From Opitutales bacterium (lineage in GTDB: Bacteria > Verrucomicrobiota > Verrucomicrobiia > Opitutales > Coraliomargaritaceae), in NCBI GenBank assembly GCA_030729385.1, contig JANQXM010000020.1:64335-101218 (forward strand): a stretch of 36,884 bases of DNA, in the 5' to 3' direction. Below are positions 31,068 to 31,888 of this stretch, in pieces. Position 1 is the first letter of the stretch, and each line of letters starts with the position of its first letter. The position numbers were made by a program, and so were the translations under genes. The notes under the pieces were generated by a model. That model ran no database searches, had not been told where the DNA came from, and was given only the letters and a program-made list of their open reading frames with translations.

Positions 31068-31157
31068 GGAGAGGTGACAGAGTGGCCGATTGTGCATCCC
31101 TGGAAAGGATGTGTGCTGGAAACGGCACCGAGGGTTCGAATCCCTCCCTCTCCGCCA
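31068..31157 (+). tRNA. tRNA-Ser (anticodon GGA)
   Basis: A full class II tRNA fold can be drawn. The acceptor stem is GGAGAGG (31068-31074) with CCTCTCC (31147-31153), discriminator G31154 and an encoded CCA at 31155-31157. The anticodon stem is CATCC (31095-31099) with GGATG (31107-31111) around the loop CTGGAAA, giving anticodon GGA at 31102-31104. The long variable arm has stem GTGC/GCAC (31113-31116 and 31125-31128). The T arm is GAGGG, TTCGAAT, CCCTC (31130-31146). The long variable arm and GGA identify serine, reading UCC and UCU. Its 3' end is duplicated at 31290-31310. Confidence 0.96.
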
Positions 31158-31287
31158 TTTGGCAAAGCCAAATGGCAATCTAGCCGCAACGCGGATTAAG
31201 GGATGAGAACGAAGTTCGACGGAGGAAGCGCTAGCGACCGGAGATGGGACACCGAAAGTGGTCTCGTAGAGATTTAGCGTAGCTAAA
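31155..31287. repeat. Chain of short perfect hairpins downstream of tRNA-Ser
   Basis: Consecutive perfect inverted repeats fill the tract after the tRNA. They are: CCATTTGGC with loop AAA (31155-31175, beginning inside the encoded CCA); CCGC, loop AAC (31184-31194); GAAC, loop GAA (31207-31217); the palindrome CGCTAGCG (31229-31236); TCTC, loop GTA (31262-31272); and TTTAGC, loop GTA (31273-31287). Another, GCG with loop TTA, follows the tRNA-end copy at 31315-31323. Most have exactly three loop bases. No protein frame explains the tract. It may form structured RNA downstream of the tRNA, or be part of a mobile unit. Confidence 0.6.
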
Positions 31288-31289
31288 CC

Positions 31290-31310
31290 AATCCCTCCCT
31301 CTCCGCCATT
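31290..31310 (+). repeat. 21-base direct repeat of the tRNA-Ser 3' end
   Basis: Bases 31290-31310 repeat 31139-31159 exactly: the end of the T loop, the T-stem 3' strand, the acceptor 3' strand, the discriminator, CCA and two following T. Copies of a tRNA 3' end just downstream are the usual footprint of site-specific insertion into a tRNA gene, because the inserted unit restores the tRNA end. The copy is flanked by a 9-base inverted repeat, TAGCGTAGC (31275-31283) and GCTACGCTA (31322-31330). Confidence 0.8.
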
Positions 31311-31339
31311 CGACGCGTTACGCTACGCTACACTTGCTC

Positions 31340-31700
31340 ATGGCAGGCCAAGAACAATCCAAACCGGTCAATACGCCCGACGGCTTACCAAGCGTCGAAT
31401 GCCCTGAGCCTGCGGAAGGGCTTGCTTGGTTATACATCGTAGAATGCTCAAACTGCACGCCTTTACGTCGGTCACACCAATAACGTTAAAACTCGATTAA
31501 CCTACCATGCGAATGGGGCTGGCGCACGACATACCAGATTACTAGCACCAATCAAACTCGTCTACGTTGAAGGTCCCATGGATCTAGGTCTCGCGATCAA
31601 ACGCGAACATCAGCTCAAAAAGTGGTCACGAGCTAAGAAGCTTGCGCTGATTCAAGACGATAAAGGTGAGTTGAAACGACTTAGCAAATCAAGGGACTAG
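31340..31700 (+). pseudogene. GIY-YIG nuclease family gene broken by a one-base insertion
   Basis: Starting at ATG 31340, the first frame gives MAGQEQSKPVNTPDG and then LAWLYIVECSN. After an extra C at about 31460 the second frame continues YVGHTNNVKTRLTYHANGAG, then KLVYVEGPMDLGLAIKREHQLKKWSRAKKLALI, and stops at 31698-31700. The total of 361 bases is not a multiple of three. Together these form one small GIY-YIG domain: LYIVE and YVGHT stand for the GIY and YIG motifs, the Arg in KTRL and the Glu in KREHQLKKW are the expected catalytic residues. The N-terminal part contains a composite hairpin (31388-31429) that looks inserted. The frame is open back through the tRNA-end copy. It resembles UPF0213/YhbQ-like single-domain nucleases. 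Confidence 0.82.
31388..31429. repeat. Composite hairpin inside the GIY-YIG pseudogene
   Basis: The outer arms CCAAGC (31388-31393) and GCTTGG (31424-31429) enclose the inner arms GCCCT (31401-31405) and AGGGC (31417-31421). The segment lies between the putative start codon and the nuclease domain and does not align with the family, so it may be a small inserted palindromic element. Confidence 0.5.
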
Positions 31701-31888
31701 CATAGCGAAGATAGCCATCCCAAAAGTAACCTCAAAGAGATACTGCCCCGCAGCACCTCTCTCGGGTATCCCTAAGACTGAAAATCAAGAAAACGTGGAC
31801 TGCCCCTCTCGGTTTTCCATTTGAAGCTAAGCCAAATGGCATTTTCTAGGTGGCGTATTTAGTTCGCAGAGGCACAACTAATGACCAC
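31701..31888. other. Non-coding tract with a degenerate copy of the tRNA-proximal hairpin
   Basis: 188 bases between the GIY-YIG remnant and the clpB stop, with no coding frame. At 31803-31850, CCCCTCTCGG and CCATTTG/CAAATGG arms (31817-31823 and 31833-31839) resemble the tRNA 3' end plus its hairpin. The 11-base GCCAAATGGCA occurs at both 31167-31177 and 31831-31841, each followed within four bases by TCTAG. This could be the far boundary of the tRNA-associated unit. Confidence 0.45.

Follow-up and report, generated by a model that had tools for sequence, protein, structure and literature searches.

A candidate array of integrase-less tRNA-tail cassettes with a small GIY-YIG nuclease gene behind a tRNA-Ser gene of an Opitutales bacterium

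Our analyses point to the region behind the tRNA-Ser(GGA) gene of an Opitutales bacterium as a decayed array of integrase-less tRNA-tail cassettes, located at tRNA 3' ends and probably spread by a small, tRNA-specific nuclease, with units resembling the RtT repeats of E. coli as non-autonomous partners; we regard this as the probable explanation of the locus. Each cassette would pair an insert with a downstream copy of the terminal 17-19 nt of the host tRNA gene, from the T-loop to CCA. Because the insert ends in a copy of the host tail, the tRNA stays intact and each insert comes with a spare tail. The inserts would be of two types, sometimes both in one array: a GIY-YIG gene, small, UPF0213-like and usually preceded by an inverted-repeat leader, or an RtT-like unit, which is non-coding and about 100-180 nt long.

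More tentatively, tRNA-tail cassettes may constitute an unrecognised cross-phylum class of mobile elements, in which a tRNA-type-specific nuclease inserts itself and RtT-like units without integrase or transposase, a tail of ~19 nt rebuilds the tRNA, and the long-unexplained tyrT/RtT repeats of E. coli are relics. GIY-YIG domains, UPF0213 proteins, RtT, tRNA att sites and free-standing homing nucleases are already known, and a literature search of open-licence papers found no report linking small GIY-YIG genes to tRNA/tmRNA 3' ends across phyla, nor RtT units to GIY-YIG genes. If true, this wider reading would trace the E. coli repeats to a shared origin and offer a mechanism for them that can be tested, would explain the abundance of small GIY-YIG genes behind tRNA genes, and would mean insertion at tRNA ends without an integrase. 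A nuclease that reads the ends of tRNA genes could also become a tool for safe genomic site targeting.

The array behind tRNA-Ser(GGA)

The window, by which we mean the whole stretch of 36,884 nt that was analysed (G000:C20:64335-101218), belongs to a draft genome of 73 contigs. Behind the tRNA, the array continues with a unit and its tail, then the nuclease and a decayed tail, and finally a hairpin remnant; its features, all on the forward strand, are as follows.

31068-31157 (+): tRNA-Ser(GGA), host gene of the array (ARAGORN; Rfam RF00005, 54.2 bits)
31139-31157 (+): tRNA 3' tail from T-loop to CCA, 19 nt, first direct-repeat copy (repeat search; 19-nt left extent)
31155-31175 (+): first perfect hairpin, CCATTTGGCAAAGCCAAATGG (fold)
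31158-31289 (+): non-coding hairpin unit of 132 nt, RtT-like, with core GGGATGAGAAC..GTTCGACG at 31200-31221 (model R1)
31199-31204 (+): AGGGAT, inverted partial copy of the host tRNA T-stem strand, the reverse complement of the tail start (own-tail match)
31290-31310 (+): exact tail copy (19 nt of tRNA tail plus TT), which closes the RtT-like unit and opens the GIY-YIG cassette (repeat search)
31309-31317 (+): left inverted-repeat arm TTCGACGCG, directly after CCA (junction common to 45/49 linked loci; arms covary)
31340-31700 (+): GIY-YIG nuclease gene, frameshifted near 31455-31470 (frame analysis; intact relatives of 117-129 aa)
31392-31400 (+): right inverted-repeat arm GCGTCGAAT (sequence; arm statistics)
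31401-31421 (+): REP-like palindrome GCCCTGAGCCTGCGGAAGGGC (sequence; motif also in relatives)
31804-31841 (+): degenerate third tail copy plus hairpin, CCCTCTCgG....CCATTTG..GCtAAGCCAAATGGCA (alignment score 44 vs a shuffled maximum of 28)

An earlier note, made from the sequence alone, had described an exact 21-base copy of the tRNA end, a chain of small hairpins, and a CCTCTC sequence with a hairpin at the far end, and these elements are borne out: 31139-31159 is identical to 31290-31310, the stretch 31155-31289 folds into several small stems, and an alignment of 31804-31841 with the tail and the first hairpin scores 44, all of 500 shuffles reaching 28 or less (0/500). The GIY-YIG domain that it placed after the tail copy is likewise present (Pfam E 1e-12 on the second-frame part). 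The single continuous nuclease frame it assumed is not, as the GIY half and the YVG...KSRD half lie in different frames, the first running from an ATG at 31340 through the GIY half (WLYIVECSN) to a stop at 31481-31483 and the second, at 31443-31700, holding the YVG...KSRD half. The note also had this frame running back into the tRNA copy, which holds for the N-terminal third and fails beyond it, where the frameshift rules out a frame continuous from the copy; as it concerns this third only, and as relatives differ in their frame relative to the tail, we consider the detail incidental. Being split over two frames, the window copy of the nuclease is probably dead, as far as can be judged from its reading frames, unless the frameshift is an error of the draft. 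In an intact relative PF01541 is matched at E 2e-14, and across 73 sequences the Y, Y-x-G, R and E residues typical of GIY-YIG are conserved at 0.99-1.0.

Between the tRNA and clpB the nuclease is the sole gene and no integrase occurs. In an Rfam scan of the window only the tRNA exceeded the threshold. A scan of 30500-32500 retrieved no intron family and the tRNA is uninterrupted, which rules out a mobile group I/II intron. A clean empty site did not turn up for the window locus: within the genus the clpB flank and the tRNA lie on different contigs, and in the nearest genomes the window flank is not syntenic. Cerasicoccus and genus g3 have the same tRNA without the module, but their downstream flank is rearranged or unrelated.

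Two minor observations concern the tRNA itself. An exosortase-like gene (window 29839-31158, reverse strand) is convergent with it, and as its longest frame overlaps the tRNA in antisense its true start is probably further in. Sub-threshold matches to sX4 (RF02223, a Xanthomonas sRNA family) at window 31055-31208 and at three other loci (L048, L049, L056) cover the tRNA-Ser and the beginning of the hairpin unit, and the sX4 family may itself include a tRNA tail unit.

Small GIY-YIG genes at tRNA ends

Using an intact relative as query, the nuclease gene was identified in 12 of 132 genomes of the order, representing 11 of 68 genera, and in all 12 loci a tRNA 3' end or a tail copy lies directly upstream of the module. 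The hosts are tRNA-Ser (GGA, GCT and TGA) and tRNA-Asp, while three loci have a tail only, without a tRNA. A scan of GTDB species genomes, in which loci were chosen by similarity to tRNA-linked proteins, yielded 80 nuclease loci from Verrucomicrobiota, Planctomycetota, Nitrospirota, Acidobacteriota, Armatimonadota, Myxococcota, Thermodesulfobacteriota, Ignavibacteriota, Bacteroidota, Lentisphaerota, Kiritimatiellota, Omnitrophota, candidate-phylum (Patescibacteria) records and others. In 49 of these 80 a same-strand tRNA or tmRNA ends less than 600 nt upstream, against 0/80 for the opposite strand; the stretches surveyed for tRNA genes, 669 kb in all, contain only 59 tRNA/tmRNA genes. A second sample, independent of similarity to the window, consisted of PF01541 matches (E <= 1e-6) in 59 Verrucomicrobiota genomes. 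Here a same-strand tRNA/tmRNA lies within 700 nt of 27 of 52 small GIY-YIG genes vs none of the 11 genes of UvrC size, the hosts being Met, Pro, Cys, Val, Gly, Asn, His, Ala, Ser and tmRNA.

The association that the earlier note proposed to look for in relatives recurs in both samples. Its central idea, a recurrent integrase-less GIY-YIG module at tRNA ends with structured DNA or RNA of its own, is strongly supported by these counts but was drawn too narrowly: tRNA-Ser is not the particular target, since the hosts also include Gln, Asn, Ala, Met, Pro, Val, Gly, His, Cys, Glu, Leu, Asp, SeC and tmRNA.

Two known kinds of element were considered and rejected. Neither the window nor the compact relatives have an integrase gene within the tail repeats, which rules out a tyrosine-integrase tRNA element, and a RAYT/REPtron is ruled out since the only gene is GIY-YIG, with no Y1 transposase. 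The compact relatives have no gene besides the nuclease.

The junction with the tRNA is highly stereotyped. In 45 of 49 linked loci the element directly abuts the tRNA end, its first bases being (T)TCGA.. and in most cases TTCGACKCG. The leader holds an inverted partner of this arm that is exact in 14 of 46 and agrees at 8 or more of 9 positions in 34 of 46; when arms were swapped between loci a mean of 5.4 exact partners remained (13 at most in 200), and none arose in shuffled leaders. The paired arms extend into the last bases of the tRNA, non-CCA ends included (at L101, CACC with GGTG). The tail-plus-TTCGAC junction was found at 27 sites in 387 genomes, the reversed pattern at none. Of these sites, 25 are at an intact tRNA/tmRNA; the nuclease is present at 11, the others being hairpin-only or remnants; one genome has three junction sites at different tRNAs. 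Other nuclease subfamilies have different leaders or start 10-22 nt after the tRNA.

Side observations at individual loci add to this diversity. The GIY-YIG genes of L268, L276, L277, L239 and L281 start 10-22 nt after the tRNA end without a hairpin leader, and L239 and L281 carry copies of the own tail, of 55 and 32 nt, downstream of the gene, forming a longer-tail subtype. At L040 (G031:C64:199-720) a tRNA-Ser(CGA) is followed by two tandem units of leader, first nuclease codons and tail, which constitute a truncated, non-autonomous derivative.

The lineage of the nuclease follows the type of tRNA across phyla. On a tree of 73 nucleases (53 linked rows), whose many weak forks make only the totals trustworthy, the tRNA type changes 13 times and the phylum 21 times, while tRNA types shuffled within phyla change 22.6 times (minimum 17). 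Pairs from different phyla that share a tRNA type show 51.5% identity, compared with 44.4% for the others (0/1000 shuffles). In close pairs dN/dS is about 0.12-0.28, and there is hardly any variation at the catalytic residues; as judged from these comparisons, the nuclease is under purifying selection, and the overall pattern fits a functional enzyme bound to one target type and moving between phyla. A cassette carrying its own tail would enter only tRNA genes whose acceptor strand fits, a requirement that would explain, as a prediction, why lineages keep to one tRNA type. Plasmids and phages yielded only distant relatives (<60% identity) and 2.9 million viral contigs only one, on which grounds plasmid and phage spread was rejected.

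Alternatively, another enzyme, e.g. a tyrosine integrase acting in trans on att sites from T-loop to CCA, might insert the cassettes, the GIY-YIG protein being an Ssn-like single-strand nuclease active on its own hairpin repeats and tRNA ends serving as safe, transcribed landing places. Ssn single-strand nucleases are UPF0213-type GIY-YIG proteins; they reportedly target dispersed repeats in Neisseria, and we know of no description of Ssn that includes tRNA-end placement or tails. The tail repeats do resemble T-loop att sites, the leaders contain REP-like palindromes, and the closest solved structures to the nuclease are UPF0213 proteins (1zg2, E 3.5e-16). However, no integrase was found in or beside the arrays, the tracking of tRNA type by the nuclease lineage across phyla would be unexpected if another protein picked the target, and some cassettes begin 10-22 nt past CCA without any hairpin leader, so that we consider this explanation unlikely.

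Tail copies and RtT-like units

In 9 of the 49 linked loci the last 17 nt of the own tRNA are recopied downstream, mostly within about 140 nt behind the gene, and the tails of other isotypes were never found there in 300 trials. The other 40 nuclease loci show no recognisable distal tail, so duplication may be non-obligatory or decay fast. Considering all 163 distinct tRNA loci, an own-tail copy is present at 31, and in 23 of these the left boundary of the copy falls 17-19 nt before the 3' end, in the T-loop just past GTTCGA; the search needed 16 nt, which fixes the lower edge of this breakpoint by design but not the sharp upper edge. The breakpoint is common to nuclease cassettes and hairpin units, and the simplest unit is an insert plus a tail. 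Orphan copies far from any tRNA start with a partial tail, several of them from about the same T-loop point. One orphan nuclease copy (L044, G019:C75; L195, G019:C76) is near an apparent diversity-generating retroelement, marked by frames resembling reverse transcriptase and by a formylglycine-type protein whose variable region is AAC-rich.

Tail repeats might also originate from tandem duplication or slippage at tRNA ends, with the nuclease gene and the RtT-like unit passively captured and amplified but immobile. Near-perfect tandem arrays of a single unit (five units in G036, four in G032) are in keeping with such a process, as are the E. coli arrays that vary in 178-bp steps. It nevertheless appears quite improbable given the common breakpoint at 17-19 nt, the patchy distribution over 11 of 68 genera, the identical kinds of insert at many tRNA types with tails matched to each locus, and the orphan copies that carry tRNA tails to other sites.

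The non-coding inserts were characterized with R1, a model of 14 hairpin units that was built with the window unit included and of which the window unit is the best match (121 bits). R1 gave 43 matches in 23 of 132 genomes of the order. Among the 30 for which the DNA was at hand, 27 lie behind a same-strand tRNA (Ser, Arg, Glu, Tyr, Leu or Gln) and 18 terminate in the tail of that same tRNA. The units contain an inverted partial copy of the own T-stem strand, 5.8 nt on average vs 4.4 for other isotypes (own match longer in 21/22 units; 0/2000 permutations). RtT-like units are found also without a nuclease; about half of the Opitutales nuclease arrays combine both, whereas elsewhere the co-occurrence is weak (4/49 vs 1.8 expected, with a short motif).

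The relationship with E. coli RtT was recovered in both directions. The 178-bp repeats of E. coli tyrV include three tail copies of exactly 19 nt each and have a core in common with units of the window type; applied to a 3-kb E. coli stretch, R1 placed the three RtT units as its top three matches (E 0.008-0.013). Conversely, relatives of the window unit, in the same position behind other tRNAs, reach or approach the Rfam RtT model, an Opitutales unit at a tRNA-Ser(GCT) of G081 (L307) scoring 45.2 bits against a gathering score of 45. In 288 Verrucomicrobiota genomes the RtT model gave 13 matches, all sub-threshold and all behind a tRNA (Ser, Arg, Pro or Tyr) with a copy of that tRNA's own tail. 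The window unit itself had no match to Rfam RtT at E<=1, although its array has the RtT-type layout, a unit behind a tRNA and ending in its own tail copy; on the evidence of these models, it is related to RtT yet by score outside RF00391.

E. coli arrays differ in length by steps of 178 bp, one unit each, and sequenced strains have 0, 1, 2 or 3 units. This variation occurs without a linked nuclease and could be ordinary recombination between repeats. The RtT stretch had no match in 746 of 5426 E. coli genomes, and strain UR21/11-869, with zero units, represents a precise empty allele in which 125 of 125 positions equal the K-12 tRNA plus its downstream flank.

Such variation also bears on the idea that the units are host functions, i.e. 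structured 3' trailers for tRNA processing or regulatory RNAs, selected and mostly vertically inherited. RtT is annotated as an RNA processed from the tyrT transcript, and the inverted copy of the own T-stem strand held by the units would suit such a role. Against it are the patchy and polymorphic occurrence, with 746 of 5426 E. coli genomes lacking a match and at least one intact tRNA with a precise empty site, and the decay of reading frames, e.g. in the window; we regard a host function as very improbable.

Three further RtT-like units deserve mention. In the window genome one lies behind a tRNA-Ser(CGA), with a tail copy (G000:C13:14543-14782, L056), and another behind a tRNA-Arg(TCT), without one (G000:C17:20959-21064, L058). 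The third (L319, G004:C73:28188-28300) is distant from any annotated tRNA and is flanked on either side by CACTTTAAAGGCC, reminiscent of a short target duplication.

Possible mechanism and relation to known systems

Under the reading we favour, of cassettes spread by a nuclease, the enzyme would cut the tRNA gene cognate to it, at or close to the T-loop or the 3' end, and repair or recombination would install the cassette, whose tail would rebuild the tRNA. Recombination between tails could then excise or multiply cassettes, and the RtT-like and hairpin-only units would be non-autonomous riders.

Several known systems have part of these features. Like E. coli RtT (RF00391, the 178-bp tyrT-tyrV repeats), the arrays repeat a unit in tandem downstream of a tRNA and close every unit with 19 nt from the end of that tRNA (in E. 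coli, exactly), with the core GGATGAGAA..GGTTCGAC, an inverted T-stem copy and models that cross-match both ways. Unlike the E. coli arrays, which lie at tRNA-Tyr and have no nuclease, they occur at Ser, Arg, Glu, Gln, Leu, Pro and Tyr genes of another phylum and share arrays with GIY-YIG genes. Tyrosine-integrase elements at tRNA genes similarly have direct repeats from T-loop to 3' end that restore the tRNA, but the cassettes have no integrase and measure about 0.1-0.5 kb instead of many kb. The combination of a nuclease gene with hairpin repeats, in autonomous and hairpin-only copies, recalls REPtron/RAYT-REP, which differ in using a Y1 transposase rather than GIY-YIG and dispersed sites rather than tRNA ends. 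UPF0213/YhbQ-like GIY-YIG proteins have the same fold family, a small single domain and palindromic repeats beside the gene.

Free-standing GIY-YIG homing endonucleases, e.g. phage SegB, which is linked to tRNA genes, are also single-domain genes beside their presumed target without an intron; here, in contrast, the genes are on bacterial chromosomes, at the exact tRNA 3' end, with tRNA-tail copies and non-coding partners. SegB acts at the phage tRNA region. Homing at the present loci would be indicated indirectly, by nuclease lineages that keep to one target type and by their patchy occurrence. One paper describes SegB as promoting the amplification of a phage locus amid a defence that cleaves tRNA-Tyr (PMC13096335).

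As regards the repertoire of inserts, a palindromic sequence of ~36 nt (GTGTGC..GCGTAGC..GCAT/GTAT) was observed within the tRNA tail copy at L046 (about 2125-2175) and at L196 (reverse strand, about 430-465), in two genomes, and represents a third kind of insert.
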